Source of the DNA: Lachnospiraceae bacterium
GTDB lineage: Bacteria; Bacillota; Clostridia; Lachnospirales; Lachnospiraceae
DNA length: 55,680 nt
Assembly: GCA_017446045.1 (NCBI GenBank)
Contig: JAFSRP010000022.1
Coordinates: 1 to 55,680, forward strand
Reading direction: 5' to 3'
Position numbers and translations under genes: made by a program. Positions 12,599 to 24,010 of this stretch are shown piece after piece. The notes under the pieces were generated by a model. The model saw only the letters and a list, made by a program, of their open reading frames with translations, was not told where the DNA came from and did no database searches. Position 1 is the first letter of the stretch. Every line of letters starts with the position of its first letter.

Positions 12599-13135
12599 TC
12601 AGACGTGAAAGCGGTCGTAGCTTTGGTAGCAGTCAATGCAGAGCTTTTTTCCCTCCCGGATGCGGATCCAGTTGGATGCGGTGAGTTCACCGCAGCTCTC
12701 GCAGATATAGGACTCGAAGAGCCTCGCTTCCTCCGGCATGGGGATGCGGGTCTCTTTTATTTCAAAGAGCTGTTCGTCCGGGGTCTCCCGATAATAGGCA
12801 AAAGACTGCTCTTTGGTCATACCCTGCGGCTTTAAACGCGTGATGAGGCGCACGGACTTTCCGGTGACGCGGTTATAAAAGGAAAAGGCCTGCTTTCCGG
12901 TCATGTGGAAGAGGAGATTGCCCTTTCCCACGCTGCAGCCCAGGACCACCTGGACGGCGTCCACGCTGCAGGAGTCGTTTTCCGCAACGCACACGGTCTG
13001 TTCGTCATCGGAAAAGTCCAGGTCCAGGAGACTTTTCGCATACAGTGCGGCACGGAAGCCGATGGCAAGCCCGCCGCAGGAGTGCCCGTGAAATTCGATG
13101 CATCTGTTCCAGAGTTCCTGATTATTCATGGTCAT
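12599..13135 (-). CDS. FmdE-family protein with C-terminal zinc ribbon
   Basis: A 178-residue protein. The N-terminal FmdE domain contains FHGHSCGGLAIGFRA and conserved Cys positions (ENDSCSVDAVQVVLGCSVG). The C-terminus has a zinc ribbon of two CxxC pairs, CESCGE and CIDCY. FmdE-like proteins are associated with tungsten and molybdenum enzymes in archaea and anaerobic bacteria, and are thought to act in cofactor or metal handling rather than catalysis. The start overlaps the end of the MOSC-MogA gene by 14 bp; two ATGs lie six bases apart and the choice is unclear. The His-rich tail of the upstream product and the metal-ligand-rich FmdE suggest joint metal handling, which is inference. Confidence 0.85.
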   Translation of the reverse strand: MTMNNQELWNRCIEFHGHSCGGLAIGFRAALYAKSLLDLDFSDDEQTVCVAENDSCSVDAVQVVLGCSVGKGNLLFHMTGKQAFSFYNRVTGKSVRLITRLKPQGMTKEQSFAYYRETPDEQLFEIKETRIPMPEEARLFESYICESCGELTASNWIRIREGKKLCIDCYQSYDRFHV

Positions 13136-14132
13136 GATGGTGGTGTTCGTGGTGATGATGATTTCCGAAAGCTTCGTTTCCGCATTCCCCCTCGGTGCCT
13201 CTTAAGATCCCCAGGCCGTGGGCAAGGGAGGGAAGGATGAAATCCAGATCCTCCCGGCAGGCTTTGGGGCTTCCCGGCATGTTGATGATCAGGGTCTTTT
13301 TGCGGATGCCGGAGGCCTGACGGCTCAGCATGGCGCGGGGCGTGATCTGCAGGGAATACCAGCGCATGGCCTCGGCGATGCCGGGGGCTGTGCGGTCGCA
13401 TACAGCCAGCGTGGCTTCGGGGGTCACATCCCTCTCCGAGAAACCGGTGCCGCCGGTGGTGAAGATCACGTTCACCTGCCGCTGGTCGGTAAGGCGCTTC
13501 AGTTCATATTCGAGCTTGAAGCGCTCGTCCGGAAGGAGCAGGGTCTCGACCACATCGTAGCCCTCCTTTTCCAGTCTTTCCACGATGAGGGGACCGCTCT
13601 TATCCTCCCGTTCCCCCCGGGATCCTTTATCGCTTAAGGTTATGACCGCGGCGCTGAAAGGCCTGGCGGGATCCAGGGCCAGCTGTTCGACTTTGTCCCC
13701 GGCTTTGACCGTGCCGCCCTTTAAGACCTTTGTAAAGACGCCTTCCCTGGGCATGATGCAGTCGCCCATCACCTTATAGATGGCACAGTGGCTGTGGCAC
13801 TCCTTGCCGATCTGGGTGAGTTCCAGCAATGCATCCCCGATCTTAAAGCGGGTCCCCACAGGGATCGTCCGAAGGTCGAAGCCTTCCACGATCAGGTTCT
13901 CTCCGAAGGCGCCAAAATCCACCTCAGCTCCCTTCGCGCGGAATTCCTCGATCTTTTCAAAGGAGAGGAGGCTTACCTGACGATGCCATTTGCCGGCATG
14001 GGCATCGCCTTCGATGCCCCAGTCTTCGACGAGATTTCCTTCCGGGATCTCGGTTTTCTGGATCCCTTTGATATCGCTGATGCAGACGGCAAGCACCTTA
14101 CCGATGCCGATGATTGTTTCCTGTTCGTTCAT
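13122..14132 (-). CDS. MOSC-MogA/MoaB fusion protein with histidine-rich tail
   Basis: A 336-residue two-domain protein. Residues 1-155 form a MOSC domain (GIEGDAHAGKWHRQVSLL, FGENLIVEG), with the family's conserved cysteine in GKECHSHC, a possible sulfur carrier. Residues 160-310 form a MogA/MoaB domain (TLSDKGSRGE, TTGGTGFSERDVTPEAT, NMPGSPKA) that would adenylate molybdopterin before metal insertion. Residues 323-336 are GNHHHHEHHHHDHE, a metal-binding-type tail outside both domains. The MOSC-MogA fusion is known in anaerobes; the tail is unusual and could deliver or sense metal. It is second in the moaA operon, 28 bp after moaA. Confidence 0.9.
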   Translation of the reverse strand: MNEQETIIGIGKVLAVCISDIKGIQKTEIPEGNLVEDWGIEGDAHAGKWHRQVSLLSFEKIEEFRAKGAEVDFGAFGENLIVEGFDLRTIPVGTRFKIGDALLELTQIGKECHSHCAIYKVMGDCIMPREGVFTKVLKGGTVKAGDKVEQLALDPARPFSAAVITLSDKGSRGEREDKSGPLIVERLEKEGYDVVETLLLPDERFKLEYELKRLTDQRQVNVIFTTGGTGFSERDVTPEATLAVCDRTAPGIAEAMRWYSLQITPRAMLSRQASGIRKKTLIINMPGSPKACREDLDFILPSLAHGLGILRGTEGECGNEAFGNHHHHEHHHHDHE

Positions 14133-15853: not shown

Positions 15854-16531
15854 TTATCTTCGTCCGGCCGGGCCGAGCCCGCCGTAGTACTCCAGGAAGC
15901 GCCGGGTCTCCGGCTGTTCCGGGTCATAAAGGAGCTTTTCGGCCGGCCCTGCTTCTAAAAGATCACCGCGGTAGAAGAAGAGGGCGTCCGTGGCCATGCG
16001 CTTGGCCTGGGAAAGGTCGTGGGTCACGAAGAGGACCGCGCAGCCCGTCTCTTCAGAGTATTCTCCGATCAGCTTTTCCGCCGCGATGGCGGATTCCATG
16101 TCCATGGCGGAAGTGGGTTCGTCCAGGATCAGAAGATCGCAGGGCTTCATAAGGACCCTGGCTAAGGACATCTTGGCAGTCTCGCCCCCGGAAAGGCTCC
16201 GGGCCCGCTGGCGGGAGACGTTCGAGAGATGGAGCTTTTCCATCAGCTCTGCGGCTCTTCCGGCGTCCCCTCCCGCAAGGAGAATGTTTTTCTCCACACT
16301 CATGCGGAACGGAAAGCTCTTCTGGGGCATGTATCTGACTGTACCGGCGTCCGTGAAGACCGTTCCGCCGCCATCCTTTTTAAGCACGCCTGCCACGAGC
16401 TTCGCGTAGGTGGACTTGCCGCTTCCGTTGGGTCCGATGACCGCGTAAATGCGTCCGGGCTTAAGCTCAAGCTCCGGGCAGTTCAGAACGGTGCGTTTGC
16501 CGTAGGTCTTGCTGCAGGGAGAGATCTTCAT
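15854..16531 (-). CDS. tupC: Tungstate/molybdate ABC transporter ATPase (TupC)
   Basis: A 225-residue ABC ATPase. Walker A GPNGSGKST, signature LSGGE, Walker B LLILDEPTS and the switch His in VTHD are present. It lacks the C-terminal MOP/TOBE domain of ModC-type ATPases, consistent with the smaller TupC. The ATG at 16531 overlaps the tupB stop codon (ATGA), which implies translational coupling. A long in-frame extension upstream lies inside tupB and is not real. Last gene of tupABC. Confidence 0.9.
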   Translation of the reverse strand: MKISPCSKTYGKRTVLNCPELELKPGRIYAVIGPNGSGKSTYAKLVAGVLKKDGGGTVFTDAGTVRYMPQKSFPFRMSVEKNILLAGGDAGRAAELMEKLHLSNVSRQRARSLSGGETAKMSLARVLMKPCDLLILDEPTSAMDMESAIAAEKLIGEYSEETGCAVLFVTHDLSQAKRMATDALFFYRGDLLEAGPAEKLLYDPEQPETRRFLEYYGGLGPAGRR

Positions 16532-17214
16532 CGGGAGAGCCTCCTTTGCATCATGGTCACGGCGATATTCACAAGGAGCGAGATCGCGATCAGGATCATG
16601 CCTAGAGCGATACCCAGGGTGAAGCTTCCGCGGTTGGTATAGAGCATGATGGCTGTGGTCATCACGTTGGTCTTCCAGGCGATGGCGCCGCCCACCATGG
16701 AGACCGCGCCGACCTCGGCGATGGAACGCGCGAAAGCCAGGAGATAAGTCGAAAAGATGGGGTAGATGCACTCGTTCGCCAGAAGCATGATGGTCTTCCA
16801 GGGACCGAGAGAGAGCCCGCGGGCGGTCTCCTTCACCTGAGGCGCCACCTGGGCTACATAGGTCTCCAGGTTGGAGATGACCAGCGGCGTGATCAGGACC
16901 ACCTGGGCGATGATCATGATCGTAACGGTGAAGAGCAGCTTATACTTCCCGAACGGGCCCACCCCCGAAAAGAGGATGTACATGATAAGACCGCAGACCA
17001 CCGGCGGCATGCCCATGAGCGTCCGGCTGATGACCACCAGCGCCTGCCGGCCTCTGAAGTTCCCGGCGCCCAGAAGGATGCCTAAGGGCACGCCGATCAG
17101 GAGCGCGATCACGGAGCTCGTGACGCAGGTCTTCGCTGTCACCAGGAGGATGTTGGCCAGTTCTCTGTCGCCCGACAGGATCAGTTCGATTGCTTTCAGT
17201 AGAGCGGAATGCAC
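16528..17214 (-). CDS. tupB: Tungstate ABC transporter permease (TupB)
   Basis: A 228-residue inner-membrane permease with about five to six hydrophobic segments. The cytoplasmic loop ETARGLSLGPWKTIMLLANE corresponds to the EAA motif contacting the ATPase. The length and the LLIGVPLGILLGAG...GMPPVVCGL pattern fit TupB/WtpB-like permeases. AAAAGGAG precedes the ATG. Between tupA and tupB lie 168 bp with a terminator-like hairpin that may reduce permease expression relative to binding protein. Confidence 0.92.
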   Translation of the reverse strand: MHSALLKAIELILSGDRELANILLVTAKTCVTSSVIALLIGVPLGILLGAGNFRGRQALVVISRTLMGMPPVVCGLIMYILFSGVGPFGKYKLLFTVTIMIIAQVVLITPLVISNLETYVAQVAPQVKETARGLSLGPWKTIMLLANECIYPIFSTYLLAFARSIAEVGAVSMVGGAIAWKTNVMTTAIMLYTNRGSFTLGIALGMILIAISLLVNIAVTMMQRRLSR

Positions 17215-17382: not shown

Positions 17383-18474
17383 TTACATCTTTCCGCCGTT
17401 TGCCTGGAAGGTCAGGAAGGTCGCCTTATCGGTAAGGATATAGGCATTCATCTCTTCCGCCATGACAAGGCAGGAGCCCATGCCGGCATTGGCAGAGGTG
17501 TACCAGTCAGTATAGTCCGCGAAGCTCTCCGCTTCCGCGGTGATGCCCAGCTCTTCCGGCCAGAGGGACAGCTCCTTGGTGTGGGTACCGGAACCGTCAC
17601 CGCGGGAGATGAAGGGGTACTTTCCGTCTGCGATGGCCGCAAATGCGTCAAGGACGCTCTCGCAGTCTTTTACGCCGGCGGGATCGTCAGCCGGACCGCA
17701 GAGTACGAAATAGTTGTAGAGGAAGGAAAGACGCTCACTGTCGAAGCCGTCCAGGGCGTAGGAGAAGCCGTCCTCGATGAACTTTTCTTCCTGAGCCTTC
17801 GCATGGACCAGGATCAGGTCGGCGTTGCCGTACTTGGCAGCAGCGATGGCCTTGCCGGTACCGGCGGACTGGACCTCCACGGTATAGCCGTACTCTTCCT
17901 CGAATACCGGAAGCAGTGCGCCAAGGAGACCGGAGTCGTTGACGGAAGTGGTGGTGGAGAGGCGGATGGTCTTGGTCTCATCGGTGGCGGGAGCGATCTC
18001 ACCTTCAAATACCGGAGCGCCGTCCAACAGGTAGAACAGGCTGTCGCCGTACTCTGCCTGGCCGTAATCCGCGGCCATCTGCATGCCTTCATCGGAAAGG
18101 AACCACTGGATCAGAGCCTTTGCGCCTTCAGTGTTGATCTCAACGCCTTCGACTGCCTTGCCGTCAGCATCCTCGAACGGGGAGTCCGGGTTCACGGCAA
18201 GCAGGGAGTAGGTGTTGATCATCTTGTCATCTGCTTCTTTTAAGATGATGGTGTTGACTTTGGCTGTGGGAGCTTCAGTCTCAGCCTCGGTCGGAGCTTC
18301 GGTCTCGGCTTCTGTCTCGGGGGCTGCAGTCGTTTCCGGAGCAGCCGTGGTCTCGGGAGCCGCCGTGGTCTCCGGTGCTGCAGTCGTAGCCGCGGGGGCA
18401 GCGGGTTTGCTGCAGCCTGCCAGAATACCGGCGGAAAGCAGCAGTACAGAAATCAATGCTAATGATTTTTTCAT
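17383..18474 (-). CDS. tupA: Tungstate-binding lipoprotein TupA, apparently circularly permuted
   Basis: A 363-residue binding lipoprotein. The signal peptide ends at lipobox LAGC (C21), followed by a repetitive Ala/Pro/Glu/Thr linker (23-70, APETTA repeats). Residues about 168-363 match the standard N-terminal and central parts of TupA: the oxyanion motif STTTSVNDSGLL, SAGTGKAI, NADLILVHA and SRGDGSGTHTKELSLW, ending at AYILTDKATFLTF. The part that normally follows that point is found instead at the front, residues 72-150: KMINTYSLLAVNPD, GAKALIQWFLSDEG, YGDSLFYL. The order is therefore permuted within one intact reading frame. The start is ATG 18474 with AGGAGGAAAAG upstream. The gene lies behind a structured leader. 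Confidence 0.9.
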   Translation of the reverse strand: MKKSLALISVLLLSAGILAGCSKPAAPAATTAAPETTAAPETTAAPETTAAPETEAETEAPTEAETEAPTAKVNTIILKEADDKMINTYSLLAVNPDSPFEDADGKAVEGVEINTEGAKALIQWFLSDEGMQMAADYGQAEYGDSLFYLLDGAPVFEGEIAPATDETKTIRLSTTTSVNDSGLLGALLPVFEEEYGYTVEVQSAGTGKAIAAAKYGNADLILVHAKAQEEKFIEDGFSYALDGFDSERLSFLYNYFVLCGPADDPAGVKDCESVLDAFAAIADGKYPFISRGDGSGTHTKELSLWPEELGITAEAESFADYTDWYTSANAGMGSCLVMAEEMNAYILTDKATFLTFQANGGKM

Positions 18475-18774: not shown

Positions 18775-19515
18775 TCAGACGCCGGCGTTGTGCGCAAATA
18801 CATCCGCGATGCGCTTCTGGCGGCAGGTGGCGCAGAGACCGTCAAACTCCTCGCCCGCGCGGTCGGCGGCATACCAGATCTCCTGCTCGGTCCCGATGAC
18901 GGCGCCGCAGGAAGAGCAGTGGACCAGTTTAAAGGTCTTGTCCCAGATGGTGCGGGTATCATTGGTCTCGCTGATCTCGATGGCGCCGGTGGGACAGACA
19001 TGGGCACAGCTTCCGCAGCCCACGCAGACGGAACTTGGCTCATGGTAGGGCGTGGCGATCTCCTTGGTGACACCGCGGTTGACGGTGGAGATGGCGCCGA
19101 CGGAAAGTTCCGCGCAGGCTTTTACGCACAGGCCGCACATGACGCACTTGCTGCCGTCGATCTTAATAAAGCGGTCGAACTTCGGCGCATTGTATTTCTC
19201 GCAGAGCGCCTGGATCTCTTTGCTCTCCGGAGCACGGGTCTCCAGAAGCCTTAAGATCATGCCGCGCTGGCGGCGTACGCGTTCATTATCGGTATAGACT
19301 TCGCATTCCCCGTCCACTGGATAGACGCAGGAGACCACGATCCTTCCGCGCCCTTTCGTCACCACTTCCACGATGCAGAGACGGCAACATCCCTGTCCGG
19401 CAAAGGCGTCGTGATGGCAGAGCGTCGGGATCTCGATCCCGTTGCGGCGCGCGATCTGGAGGATGTATTCTCCCTTTTCACATTCGCAGGGAATTCCGTT
19501 GATGGTAATGATCAT
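18775..19515 (-). CDS. NuoG/HndD-like Fe-S subunit (WorA-like)
   Basis: A 246-residue electron-transfer subunit. The N-terminus is a plant-type [2Fe-2S] ferredoxin domain with cysteines in PTLCHHDAFAGQGCCRLC. A bacterial-type 2x[4Fe-4S] domain follows (CVMCGLCVKAC, CVGCGSCAHVCP). The C-terminus has an extra pair of CxxC motifs (CSSCG, CATCRQK). It lacks the catalytic H-cluster of hydrogenases and the large domain of NuoG. The ATG at 19515 overlaps the upstream stop (ATGA), so it is translationally coupled to the NuoF-like gene. It fits the small NuoG-type subunit of bifurcating tungsten oxidoreductase (WorABC/BfuABC-like) complexes. Confidence 0.85.
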   Translation of the reverse strand: MIITINGIPCECEKGEYILQIARRNGIEIPTLCHHDAFAGQGCCRLCIVEVVTKGRGRIVVSCVYPVDGECEVYTDNERVRRQRGMILRLLETRAPESKEIQALCEKYNAPKFDRFIKIDGSKCVMCGLCVKACAELSVGAISTVNRGVTKEIATPYHEPSSVCVGCGSCAHVCPTGAIEISETNDTRTIWDKTFKLVHCSSCGAVIGTEQEIWYAADRAGEEFDGLCATCRQKRIADVFAHNAGV

Positions 19516-21302
19516 TTCTCGTCCCTCCCCTTCGTAAGTATCGCGTTGAAGCGGCAGGCCTCGCGGCAGCTGCCGCAGCTGATGCACTTATCGGGATCGA
19601 TCTTATGCGGTTTGCGGATCTCGCCGGAAGCGGCGCCGGTGGGACATGCCCTTACGCAGGCGGAGCAGCCCTTGCACTTGTCCGGATCCACCGCGAAGCT
19701 CGTCAGGTCCTTACAGACACCGGCAGGGCAGCGGTGCTCCAGGATGTGCGCCTCGTATTCCTCGCGGAAATACTTGAGTGTGGTGAGCACCGGGTTGGGC
19801 GCGGACTGTCCGAGGGCGCACAGTGAGCTGTCCTTCATGGTCTCTCCCAGGGTCTCCAGAAGGTCCAGGTCCTCCATGGTGCCTTTGCCGTGGCATATAT
19901 CCTCCAGGATGGCGAGCATCTGCTTCAGGCCTTCCCGGCAGGGGGTGCACTTGCCGCAGCTTTCGCCGCAGAGGAAGTTGACATAATATCTGGCGACTTC
20001 CACCATGCAGCTCCGGTCGTCCATGACGATCATGCCGCCGGAACCCATCATGGCACCGTACTGCTTCAGAGTGTCAAAATCCACAGGCAGGTCCAGCATG
20101 CTCTCCGGGATACAGCCGCCGGAGGGCCCGCCGGTCTGCACGGATTTGAAGGGACGGTCGTTCTGAACGCCGCCGCCTACGTCGTAGATGAGGTGGCGGA
20201 GAGTGGCGCCCATGGGAACCTCTACGAGGCCCGTGCGCTTGACCTTGCCGACCAGAGCGAAGACCTTGGTGCCCTTGCTGCCTTCGGTGCCGACGGAAGC
20301 GTAGCCCGCCGCGCCGTGGGAGATGATGTAGGGAACGTTGGCCAGGGTCTCCACGTTATTGAGCACCGTCGGATGGTCCCAGAGGCCTCTCTGCACCGAG
20401 CGGATATACTTGGCTCTCGGTTCGCCCACTTTTCCTTCGATGGATTGCATCAGGGCGGTGGACTCGCCGCAGACGAAGGCGCCGCCGCCGCGCACCACGG
20501 AAAGATGAAGCTTCTTGCCGCTTCCCATGATGGAATCGCCGATGAAACCGCGCTCCTCAGCGGCCTTGATGGCCGCCCGGACATTCTTCACTGCCAGGGC
20601 GTACTCGTCACGGATGTAGAGGAAACCTTCCTCTGAGCCGATGGCCAGCGCGCAGATGGCCATGCCCTCGATCACGGAGTGGGGATCGCCTTCCAGAATG
20701 GAACGATCCATGAACGCGCCGGGGTCACCTTCGTCGCCGTTGCAGGCCACGTACTTGGGGAAGACGTCATAGCCGGCTGCCGTGCGCCACTTGCGTCCGG
20801 TGGGGAAGCCGGCGCCGCCTCTGCCGCGCAGGCCGGAGATGTCCATCTCGTCCAGGATCTCTTCGGGCTTCATGGTGAGGGCTTTCTTCAGTGCCTCGTA
20901 GCCGCCGGTGGCGATATAGTCGTCGACGTCGAGCGGATCGATCTTGCCGATATTGCGAAGGGCGATCTTCATCTGTGGGGCATAGAAAGGATTGTCCTGC
21001 TGGCTTCTGACCCGTTCTCCCTGATCGTTCTTATAGAGCAGGCGGTCCACGGTCTCACCGTGCCCGATGGTCTTTTCCAGGATCTCGGGAACGTCAGCGG
21101 GTTTCACATGATAGTAGGAGATGTTGTCGGGAAGGACGGTCACCAGGGGTCCGTTCTCACAGAAACCGTTGCAGCCGGTGCGCTTCACATGGCACTCCAC
21201 CTGCACGTTCTCTCCTGTGATCAGGCGTTCGAATTCCTCGGCCACCTTCATGCTGCCGTTGGCAAGGCAGCCGGTGCCGCAGCACACTCGGATGGTCTTC
21301 AT
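19512..21302 (-). CDS. NuoF/HndC-like NADH-binding flavoprotein subunit (WorB-like)
   Basis: A 596-residue subunit. Residues 1-95 are a thioredoxin-like [2Fe-2S] domain (CCGTGC, CNGFC). The NuoF core follows with the FMN/NAD-binding glycine-rich loop GRGGAGFPTGRKW and CNGDEGDPGAFMDR, then an SLBB-type region and the [4Fe-4S] motif CGESCGKCTPCREG. The C-terminal 60 residues add a 2x[4Fe-4S] ferredoxin domain (CKGCSACVRACP, CISCGSCREAC). This is the HndC/HydB/BfuB layout, which exchanges electrons between NAD(H) and ferredoxin; flavin-based bifurcation is known for relatives and inferred here. It overlaps both neighbours by 4 bp (ATGA). Confidence 0.93.
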   Translation of the reverse strand: MKTIRVCCGTGCLANGSMKVAEEFERLITGENVQVECHVKRTGCNGFCENGPLVTVLPDNISYYHVKPADVPEILEKTIGHGETVDRLLYKNDQGERVRSQQDNPFYAPQMKIALRNIGKIDPLDVDDYIATGGYEALKKALTMKPEEILDEMDISGLRGRGGAGFPTGRKWRTAAGYDVFPKYVACNGDEGDPGAFMDRSILEGDPHSVIEGMAICALAIGSEEGFLYIRDEYALAVKNVRAAIKAAEERGFIGDSIMGSGKKLHLSVVRGGGAFVCGESTALMQSIEGKVGEPRAKYIRSVQRGLWDHPTVLNNVETLANVPYIISHGAAGYASVGTEGSKGTKVFALVGKVKRTGLVEVPMGATLRHLIYDVGGGVQNDRPFKSVQTGGPSGGCIPESMLDLPVDFDTLKQYGAMMGSGGMIVMDDRSCMVEVARYYVNFLCGESCGKCTPCREGLKQMLAILEDICHGKGTMEDLDLLETLGETMKDSSLCALGQSAPNPVLTTLKYFREEYEAHILEHRCPAGVCKDLTSFAVDPDKCKGCSACVRACPTGAASGEIRKPHKIDPDKCISCGSCREACRFNAILTKGRDEK

Positions 21303-21775
21303 GATCCGCTCGCCTCCTTCCGATATTCCTCCAGGATGCCGGGAAGTTTTTCCAGGGTCATCTTGCCGTAATAGGTCTCATCCACGACCATGACGGGAGC
21401 CAGGGCGCACGAGCCCAGACAGTTGACAAGCTCCAGGGAAAACAGTCCGTCCCCGGTGGTCTCGTCAGCGTCGATCCCGAGGATCCGGTTGATGCCGTCC
21501 CGCAGGGGCGACGCGCCACGGATATGGCAGGCCGTGCCGTCGCAGAGCTTGATGATGTGGCGTCCCTTCGGTTTAAGGCTTAAGGCCTTGTAGAAGGTCG
21601 CCATGGAATAGAGCGAGGAGAGGGGACATCCGAGGTAATCGGACAGCGCCTCCATGCCTTCCCGCGGAATGTAGTTATACTTGCGCTGCATGTCCTGCAT
21701 GATTGCGAGACTGAAGCGCTGCTCCTTCGGGTACTGGTTCAGGATCCCGGAGATCTCTTCTCTGGAGACCGGCAT
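21299..21775 (-). CDS. NuoE-like [2Fe-2S] subunit (WorC-like)
   Basis: A 158-residue thioredoxin-fold ferredoxin subunit. The four cluster ligands are in LCDGTAC and NCLGSC. N-terminal ILNQYPKEQRFSLAIMQDMQ and YNYIP...LSDYLG...SLYSMATFY are typical NuoE/HndA helices. I used ATG 21775, which has AAAGGCGG upstream; a TTG start 21 bases further upstream is possible. It is coupled to the NuoF-like gene by a 4-bp overlap and passes electrons between it and the rest of the complex. Confidence 0.93.
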   Translation of the reverse strand: MPVSREEISGILNQYPKEQRFSLAIMQDMQRKYNYIPREGMEALSDYLGCPLSSLYSMATFYKALSLKPKGRHIIKLCDGTACHIRGASPLRDGINRILGIDADETTGDGLFSLELVNCLGSCALAPVMVVDETYYGKMTLEKLPGILEEYRKEASGS

Positions 21776-21814
21776 AAAAGTTTCACCGCCTTTCAAGGGT
21801 ATCTGGAGTGGGTG

Positions 21815-22096
21815 TCAGCCGCCTGCCACGATGGGGAAGATGAGCACGCGGTCGGAGTCTTTTAAGGGCGTGTCGAGGCCGTTTAAAAACTCTGCGCGGC
21901 GTCCGTTGACGAGCACGATGATCTGCTCCCCCAGGGCATCGCCGTCCGGGGAGAAGTATTCGGCGCGGAACTTTCCGCCGTAGCGGGCGCCCAGTTCCTC
22001 TCCGAGGCCCCGCAGATCCCTCGGGGCAGGGAACTCGGTCTCCCGGCAGCCGGCATAATCCGCATCGCGGTAGTAGGCAAAAAAGGAGATCTTCAT
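21815..22096 (-). CDS. moaD: MoaD/ThiS-family sulfur carrier protein
   Basis: A 93-residue ubiquitin-like protein ending in VAGG. The GlyGly tail would be adenylated by a MoeB-type enzyme and converted to thiocarboxylate to supply the dithiolene sulfurs of molybdopterin. The motif LVNGRRAEFLNGLDTPLKDSDRV..FPIVAGG is diagnostic. It is placed inside the oxidoreductase operon, between the catalytic subunit and NuoE, so carrier and enzyme are made together; similar MoaD-like genes accompany other AOR operons. No MoaE partner is in the window. Confidence 0.9.
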   Translation of the reverse strand: MKISFFAYYRDADYAGCRETEFPAPRDLRGLGEELGARYGGKFRAEYFSPDGDALGEQIIVLVNGRRAEFLNGLDTPLKDSDRVLIFPIVAGG

Positions 22097-22127
22097 TATT
22101 GATGACCTTGTTTTTTAAACTACACCA

Positions 22128-22153
22128 ACCGGAAGCGGTCTCCCGCTCCCGGT
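22128..22153 (-). promoter_or_regulatory. Hairpin between AOR gene and moaD
   Basis: The minus-strand RNA forms an 11-bp stem, ACCGGGAGCGG with CCGCUUCCGGU (one G-U pair), and a 4-nt GAGA loop. Flanking GUUUAA and UUAAAC can extend it. No U-run follows directly, so it may be an mRNA-processing or stability element in the 111-bp gap, setting the ratio of catalytic subunit to later subunits. Confidence 0.5.
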
Positions 22154-22207
22154 ACAGTGCTGGTTGTTTAAGCTTTCAGGGATGCCGGGGCCGTTCAGGC
22201 CGCCGGA

Positions 22208-24010
22208 TCATTTCATGCACAGCTCCTCGAGCTTGGCATCGGTCGGAACGCCTTCGCTGTCCCATCCGCGTGCGGCATAGTACTCTTTGAGCATGGTGTA
22301 GAGGTCGTTGACCTTGCCGGCCGCGGGACCTTCGGGAAGTTTGTCGCGCAGGAGACGCGGCGGAAGGGTATCCTTCTCGACGCCGGCAGCGATATTGAAC
22401 ATCTTCTCCAGGTTCCAGATCCTCTCTCCCTTGAGCAGGATATCTTCATCGCTCTCGTCGCTGCCCACGGCTTCGCGGTACATGCCCGCGATCTCGGCAA
22501 GGCCGATACCGAAGGTGGTGAAGAGGCAGATGCCGGTGGAGTCGCACAGGGCTGTCAGGTCCTGGAAGACTTTCAGCATGCCCGGCTTACCTTCCGTAGT
22601 GAGCGGATCCATAGCCTGCGGTATACCCAGGACCTCCGGGGAGATCATGTATCCGCGGACGTGGCAGCCGCCGCGGTTGGAAGTGGCGTACTCCAGGCCG
22701 ATACCCTGGATGGCGCGGCCGTCATATGCGGGCATCTCCTGCTTCTTGACGGACATGGAGAGCTCCGGATGGCCGTATTTCTCCGCCATGCGGTAGGAGC
22801 CCAGGCCCATGATCTTGCCGAAGCCTTCGCCCTTGCAGGTCATCTCGGTAGCCTTCACCATAGCGGCAGCGTCGCCGAAGAGAAGCGGGAACCCCACGTC
22901 TGCTTCCGTGATGGCGCCGATCTTGTAGAGCTCCATCGCGCAGGCGATGGTGGTGCCCATGGTGATCGGGTCGATGCCGTACTGGTTGCAGAGGAAGTTT
23001 GCGTTACAGACAGCGCCCAGATCGTCGACGCCGCAGTCTGCGCCGAAGGACCAGCCGGCTTCATACTCGGGGCCTTCGCCCTTGGATTTGAAGGCGCCTG
23101 CCTTGATCTCGGTCAGACGTCCGCAGCCGATGGGACAGCCGAAGCAGCCCTTGTTGCGGATCAGGTGGCGTGCGGTCAGAGATTCACCGGAGATCTCGTC
23201 CGCCTGCGGGAAGAGGGAACCTTCGGAACCGTTGTTGACGGGAAGGCCGCCCACGCCGTTGACGATGTTGACGAGGATCATGGTGCCATAAGCGGAAAGT
23301 CCTGCGCCGGTGACCGGATGAGCACGCAGAGTGTCGCGTGCTGCCATTGCCTCCTTATAGAAGCCATCCGGACGCGCGACGAATACGGAACCGGTGCCCT
23401 TGACCACGACGGCCTTCAGTTTCTTGCTGCCCATGACGGCACCCATGCCGCCGCGGCCTGCTGCGCGGTGCTTGTCGTTCATGATACCGGCAAACAGTAC
23501 GCCGTTCTCACCGGCAGCGGAGATGGTGGCGACGCGGAAGTTGGATCCGCATTCCTCATAGAGCATCTCGGTGGTCTCGAATACGTCCTTGCCCCACAGA
23601 TGAGAGGCATCACGCAGCTCGATCACGTCGTCGTTAATGTAAAGATATACCGGCTTCTCGGAGATATCCTCGAAAATGATGCCGTCATAACCGGCATATT
23701 TTAGTTCCGGACCGAAGTGTCCGCCGGAGTTGGCGGCGCCGATGGTGCCGGTGAGCGGAGATTTTGCGACCGCATTATAACGTCCGGAGGACGGTGCGGC
23801 AGTGCCGGTGAGCGGGCCTGTCATCAGGATCAGGTTGTTGCCGGGACCGAAGGGATCGCACTGGGGATCGCATTCATCGCAAAAATACTTGGTGCCGAGT
23901 CCGCGGGCGCCAACATACATAGTGGCGCTGGCCTCATTGAGCGGTTCGGTGCGGATGGTGCCTGCCTTCAGGTTGACACGAATGATCTTTCCTATATATC
24001 CGTTCTTCAT
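22208..24010 (-). CDS. Aldehyde:ferredoxin oxidoreductase family, tungsten catalytic subunit (WorL-like)
   Basis: A 600-residue member of the AOR family. It should bind a tungsten-bispyranopterin and one [4Fe-4S] cluster and oxidise aldehydes to acids in the cytoplasm. The N-terminus GYIGKIIRVNL and ARGLGTKYF match AOR domain 1. Cluster ligands are C289, C292, C296 (CFGCPIGC) and C495 (DSTGIC). GPLTGT and GRGGMGAVMGSKKLKAVVVKG are pterin-binding-region signatures. The start overlaps the ferredoxin stop by 4 bp. Its neighbours (four-cluster ferredoxin, NuoEFG-like subunits, MoaD, tupABC) resemble tungsten WOR systems described from gut bacteria. Substrate range cannot be read from sequence; benzoyl-CoA reductase-type BamB is a less likely relative. 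Confidence 0.93.
   Translation of the reverse strand: MKNGYIGKIIRVNLKAGTIRTEPLNEASATMYVGARGLGTKYFCDECDPQCDPFGPGNNLILMTGPLTGTAAPSSGRYNAVAKSPLTGTIGAANSGGHFGPELKYAGYDGIIFEDISEKPVYLYINDDVIELRDASHLWGKDVFETTEMLYEECGSNFRVATISAAGENGVLFAGIMNDKHRAAGRGGMGAVMGSKKLKAVVVKGTGSVFVARPDGFYKEAMAARDTLRAHPVTGAGLSAYGTMILVNIVNGVGGLPVNNGSEGSLFPQADEISGESLTARHLIRNKGCFGCPIGCGRLTEIKAGAFKSKGEGPEYEAGWSFGADCGVDDLGAVCNANFLCNQYGIDPITMGTTIACAMELYKIGAITEADVGFPLLFGDAAAMVKATEMTCKGEGFGKIMGLGSYRMAEKYGHPELSMSVKKQEMPAYDGRAIQGIGLEYATSNRGGCHVRGYMISPEVLGIPQAMDPLTTEGKPGMLKVFQDLTALCDSTGICLFTTFGIGLAEIAGMYREAVGSDESDEDILLKGERIWNLEKMFNIAAGVEKDTLPPRLLRDKLPEGPAAGKVNDLYTMLKEYYAARGWDSEGVPTDAKLEELCMK

Follow-up and report, generated by a model that had tools for sequence, protein, structure and literature searches.

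A protein of 363 amino acids encoded in a 55,680-nucleotide stretch from a Lachnospiraceae bacterium (contig JAFSRP010000022.1 of assembly GCA_017446045.1; hereafter the window) is very probably the lipoprotein that binds tungstate for a TupABC importer, with a chain that has been circularly permuted in nature. We refer to it as cpTupA. The gene is a single frame without interruption, read on the minus strand from 18474 to 17383, and the plus-strand reading of the interval contains stops; a preliminary description made from the letters alone had given these coordinates and the intact frame correctly. It had also assigned residues 72-150, a front boundary which coincides with that of our profiles, to the C-terminal part of ordinary TupA, and had proposed the permutation, for which profile tiling, controls, structure prediction, orthologue order and trees all provide support.

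Two homologous pieces, in swapped order, jointly cover ordinary TupA. The best Pfam stretch in cpTupA is PBP_like_2 at residues 166-358, and the best match to the NCBIfam TupA model (NF041772) is at residues 168-359, equivalent to profile positions 15-192 of 266; that model also counted a second, unlocated stretch. In a phmmer comparison with the solved TupA 3muq, residues 168-357 matched chain positions 5-179 (138.7 bits) and residues 72-133 matched 181-231, the latter weak when taken alone (7.8 bits). The second stretch scored 4.2, -0.7 and 7.7 bits against 3lr1, 5my5 and 3kn3, respectively, with the order swapped in each. Profiles of each piece, based on 81 permuted proteins (cpTupA and those of 80 loci), were run against fetched ordinary TupAs, in which the front profile, where found at a domain expect value (E) <0.01, falls after the back profile, with E down to 2e-16. 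Compared with a profile of 43 ordinary TupAs, the back piece aligned to positions 2-178 (E 6.9e-70) and the front piece to 178-245 (E 4.9e-21), directly abutting it, whereas column-shuffled and reversed front pieces gave E of only 0.19 and 0.15. The join with its order restored aligned with ordinary TupA over 244 of 250 columns (E 1.3e-85), thus extending the homology to the whole length. Single-sequence alignments with the ordinary TupA of locus L132 scored 143 for the front and 459 for the back, against maxima of 51 and 54 for shuffled sequences (500 shuffles for the front). Among 170 open reading frame (ORF) rows, duplicates included, 90 had the front piece first, 62 had the back piece first and 18 had the back piece alone, with no mixed rows. 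Since its pieces read front-back and not in the ordinary order, cpTupA was filed as a permuted variant and not as an ordinary TupA. The permuted clan is very highly conserved, with a mean column identity of 81% over 50 permuted sequences and 59% over 43 ordinary ones.

In the AlphaFold2 model of cpTupA (mean predicted local distance difference test score 91.8), the elements follow a rotated version of the order seen when an ordinary TupA is modelled. Sequential structural alignment with four solved TupAs covered 177-181 residues, compared with 229-245 for an ordinary control. The preliminary description had named the outcome that would speak against it, a front piece folded as a separate domain beside an already complete back part, and this was not seen: the back part of the model covers 3lr1 only to residue 180, and the front supplies the rest by sequence. 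The structural and domain matches listed for cpTupA, to which the comparison of folds was confined, comprise TupA and other type II-like folds.

The published borders of the DaTupA lobes, as given in the available text of PMC5517513, place residues 2-76 and 201-251 in lobe A and 91-200 in lobe B. In our reading of the alignment with solved TupAs, DaTupA Tyr201 corresponds to the Tyr of INTYSLLAVNP in cpTupA, and by homology the front piece holds the last strand of lobe B, the hinge strand and the lobe A helices. The chain would therefore pass from the last strand of lobe B through lobe A and a joint to the old N-terminus, and end in lobe B, with lobe A contiguous and lobe B split in sequence. 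The joint, which would connect the old C-terminus to the old N-terminus, measures 16 residues between profile ends in 90/90 permuted rows, duplicates included and with the ends extrapolated from the profiles. The new ends would have been opened between the helix after the ordinary AYTLTD motif and the next lobe B strand, with the fold and oxyanion site presumably as in ordinary TupA.

This geometry would bring the lipid tether into lobe B instead of lobe A. The earlier suggestion that the permutation relocates the membrane tether thus holds as geometry, within the limits of the DaTupA borders, but does not extend to the roughly 10 of 88 permuted members without a lipobox (some of the 88 loci represent the same genome present in two collections). 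Patterns run over stop-to-stop frames found a lipobox in 75/88 loci and an AxA-type secretion signal without a lipobox in nine (L026, L027, L042, L049, L057, L067, L073, L080 and L087); of the others, L015 is AxA-like by eye, the L054 sequence is masked, and two (L048 and L082) begin at the end of a contig. For ordinary TupAs the count was 52/78, a crude figure that carries no weight here. With some permuted members lacking a lipobox, a benefit from tethering would explain the permutation in part at most. The permuted TupAs with AxA signals, the nine and perhaps L015, are possibly untethered binding proteins.

The permuted order recurs in dozens of relatives. A scan of genome contigs returned 138 related loci, 80 of which were kept, and 80/80 kept loci, located on separate contigs, show the permuted order within a single ORF, which answers the question of orthologues raised in the preliminary description. 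Their titles are mostly Oscillospiraceae, Lachnospiraceae and other clostridia, with one Solobacterium and one Coriobacteriales; one title, Flavonifractor sp. An92, lacks the words MAG (metagenome-assembled genome) or uncultured, which the rest carry. In the class sample, permuted TupA was present in at least 4/391 genomes, with a TupA match in 47; this is a lower bound, as a genome was counted only once the order had been read and part of the 47 were fetched. The family sample had permuted TupA in 6/299 genomes (13 with a match, seven ordinary), one of the permuted genes being truncated at a contig end, and the sole same-genus genome listed in it had no TupA match. In the phylum sample, the window's own genome was the only one of 398 counted as permuted, judged by score (584 bits, next best 221), while 187 had a match. 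Permuted TupA is thus patchily distributed, and may have been transferred between lineages.

Phylogenies of the whole protein and of each piece point to a single origin. Trees were computed in quick mode with Shimodaira-Hasegawa-like approximate likelihood ratio test (SH-aLRT) support only, and rooted for drawing only. For the main tree, the 170 rows were reduced to 166 by dropping four duplicate loci and to 120 by dropping near-identical rows (>=88% identity), leaving 46 permuted rows; single-piece trees had 110 rows after removal of 10 long-branch rows, and the TupB tree had 96, omitting rows without a found TupB and four named loci. The 46 permuted rows lie on one side of a branch with support of 100 in the whole tree, 100 for the back piece and 97 for the front piece. 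By path from L120, the same four ordinary TupAs (L131, L132, L165 and L118) are nearest in both single-piece trees, and in the whole tree the permuted proteins join L131, L132 and L165 with support of 92, under the starred level. The TupB partners of permuted TupAs also form one clan (41 rows, support 100), nearest to L131, L132 and L118. The two pieces thus most probably share a single ancestral TupA lineage. The one permuted clan, the shared nearest relatives and the TupB clan make it likely that the permutation was a single event inside a clostridial tup operon, probably inherited since then together with tupB. The permuted order would be the derived one, because solved TupA, ModA and WtpA are all in the ordinary order. 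A probable route would be a tandem duplication, followed by fusion and then by loss of the ends. The genome of L131 has the arrangement tupA-tupB-tupC-tupA2, which is only suggestive of such a route because tupBC lies between the copies and the motifs of the second are altered. At L173:9781-10653, a second TupA-like gene follows tupABC in a lineage that has the ordinary order and is close to the permuted clan; alterations in the TTTS and SGTH motifs of this gene perhaps reflect a different ligand or decay.

Tungstate import is the most likely role of cpTupA, given that the oxyanion site is kept, tupB adjoins the gene, and molybdenum cofactor (Moco) and AFOR-family genes lie around it. TupA binds tungstate very tightly, at ~0.5 nM according to the accessible part of PMC11980592. 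Eight site positions, listed in the available text of PMC5517513, were followed through the permuted loci: T, T, T, S and His are present in 88/88 and Arg, Thr and Asp in 87/88, the one gap row presumably being L164, which is truncated by a contig end. In cpTupA they are TTTS 174-177, H224, R291, T297 and D349, all in the back piece. Tungstate would be held by TTTS and His of lobe A and by Arg, Thr and Asp of lobe B, and then handed to TupB/TupC. cpTupA is encoded beside TupB and TupC, and tupB adjoins the permuted tupA on the same strand in 79/79 loci with more than 1 kb of room and in 4/9 of the others. There is a small chance that the protein is TupA-like and permuted but has changed its ligand to molybdate or another oxyanion, since tungstate binding is read from the sequence, the internal branch to ordinary TupA is long (0.7) and both pieces carry inserts; the conserved site and the neighbouring tupBC, Moco and AFOR-family genes argue for tungstate.

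Other accounts dispense with a true permutation or with the gene as read. An unrelated small domain fused ahead of a truncated TupA would fit the weak single-sequence front matches (<=7.8 bits), but is very improbable, as the front profile matches TupA exactly where the back piece ends and both single-piece trees give the same nearest relatives. Still less credible is a duplicated half-lobe that resembles the TupA C-terminus through lobe pseudo-symmetry. The TupA lobes do superpose at 3.0 Å, according to the available part of PMC5517513, and one shifted structural match was seen (4h1x, model 4-219 to chain 104-289), but the next register of the front profile reaches only E 0.22, against 4.9e-21, and the NTYSxxAVNP, SDE and EYGxxLF motifs match the ordinary C-terminus position by position. 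The fragmented genome (63 contigs, 78.88% complete) might suggest that the gene is broken or arose as an assembly chimera within a single metagenome bin, but the chance of this is negligible in view of the identical order on separate contigs, Flavonifractor sp. An92 included, and the 46 permuted rows left after removal of near-identical ones. Profile tiling, the order in 80/80 loci and the register test led us to reject all three.

Several observations weigh against a permuted tungstate-binding lipoprotein of single origin. The NCBIfam TupA score of cpTupA, 140.9 bits, is below the curated cut-off of 400 bits, which 0/391 class genomes pass, ordinary TupAs included. Searched with phmmer, the window's front piece ranks L138, L132, L109, L135 and L165 first, an order unlike that of the back piece (L131, L133, L132, L165 and L118). 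No doubled intermediate, front-back-front or back-front-back, occurs in the 170 ORF rows. The members without a lipobox belong here as well. In the window's genome the TupA model found one gene and ModA had no match (WtpA was not searched), but this absence of a second TupA or ModA is weak because the genome is incomplete. A search of that genome with cpTupA added 25 rows, each confined to query residues 1-120, chiefly signal and linker.

The literature already contains permuted binding proteins of type I, along with remote type II-like cases. TpMglB-2 (Tp0684), termed 'Type Ic' by its authors, is likewise an ABC binding lipoprotein whose chain is circularly permuted in nature; its authors describe relatives in Gram-positive bacteria and suggest anchoring as a possible reason. 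It has a sugar-binding fold of type I, which cpTupA probably does not share, is cut at a different site and, unlike cpTupA, known from sequence and a model, has been solved and assayed (available text of PMC4990184). CPSARST linked glycine-betaine-binding proteins, molybdate-binding proteins and CysB by permutation at the level of structure. The molybdate-binding proteins have the general fold of cpTupA, but their permutation relation to the glycine-betaine-binding proteins is one between remote families (<24% identity), whereas cpTupA lies within one family, with clear identity and in the same operon (available text of PMC2395249).

The closest known proteins, ordinary TupAs such as DaG20 TupA (5my5) and GsTupA (3lr1), with NF041772 as the NCBIfam model, share with cpTupA the sequence of both pieces, the oxyanion-site positions and the tupB and tupC neighbours, and differ in piece order, in having no ends in lobe B or 16-residue joint, and in lacking the inserts. 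WtpA and ModA transport oxyanions, as TupA does. They have the overall fold of cpTupA but the ordinary order and low identity (10-14% for 3cfx, 3cfz, 3cg1 and 3cij). In the open-access literature, judged mostly from listings and exclusive of subscription papers and preprints, we found no report of a permuted TupA. Two papers on tungsten use by gut bacteria (PMC11980592 and PMC13328260) were not listed among those that bring TupA, permutation and tungsten together; according to the second, Eubacterium limosum is genetically tractable.

Here a natural circular permutation is provable from sequence within one transporter family. The ordinary relatives, shared operon and inferred single origin make it a convenient case in which to ask if import depends on the tether point or on which lobe is contiguous. 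It is rather doubtful that the permutation is adaptive, in the sense of having co-evolved with a distinct TupB clade and, by leading the lipid anchor into lobe B, altering receptor docking, opening or membrane holding in tungsten-using clostridia. In the class sample, the four permuted genes scored 114-137 bits with the TupA family model and ordinary ones up to 290. Surveys of tungsten use that apply strict cut-offs or coverage rules could thus overlook permuted receptors. For any tungstate sensor based on TupA, the cut site would be a chain-opening place already used in nature. Coordinates are collected in Table 1.

Table 1. Parts of cpTupA and the adjoining transporter genes in the window.
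Feature	Residues	Coordinates	Strand	Basis
cpTupA (predicted circularly permuted tungstate-binding protein)	363 amino acids and stop	17383..18474	minus	Translation, phmmer, profile comparison
Signal peptide with lipobox LAGC (Cys21)	1-21	18412..18474	minus	Translation inspected by eye
Ala/Pro/Thr/Glu-rich tether linker	22-71	18262..18411	minus	Translation; composition in relatives
Front piece, C-terminal part of ordinary TupA	72-150	18025..18261	minus	phmmer, profiles, single-sequence alignment
Joint, old C-terminus to old N-terminus	151-166	17977..18024	minus	Profile ends
Back piece, N-terminal part of ordinary TupA	167-363 (profile match 168-359)	17386..17976	minus	phmmer, profiles
tupB, ABC (ATP-binding cassette) permease		16528..17214	minus	PF00528; adjoining in relatives
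tupC, ABC ATPase		15854..16531	minus	PF00005; start likely at 16531, judged from sequence; open frame to 16771

The Moco genes around cpTupA encode MoaA, MoaC, MOSC-MoCF and FmdE proteins, accompanied by a ThiS-type protein and Complex-I-like iron-sulfur subunits. Beside the tup operon, at 18775-24010, an AFOR-family oxidoreductase gene is found with ThiS-type, NuoF-like and ferredoxin-type genes, which likely encode an NADH-linked tungstoenzyme; the window's genome has one AFOR_C gene. Rfam gave no matches in the window at gathering thresholds, and thus no known Moco-type RNA element. Among the Moco genes, 13125-14132 encodes one protein in which a MOSC domain is fused to a MoCF-type molybdopterin-binding domain, and the neighbouring 12602-13135 encodes an FmdE domain with a dksA/traR-type zinc finger after it.
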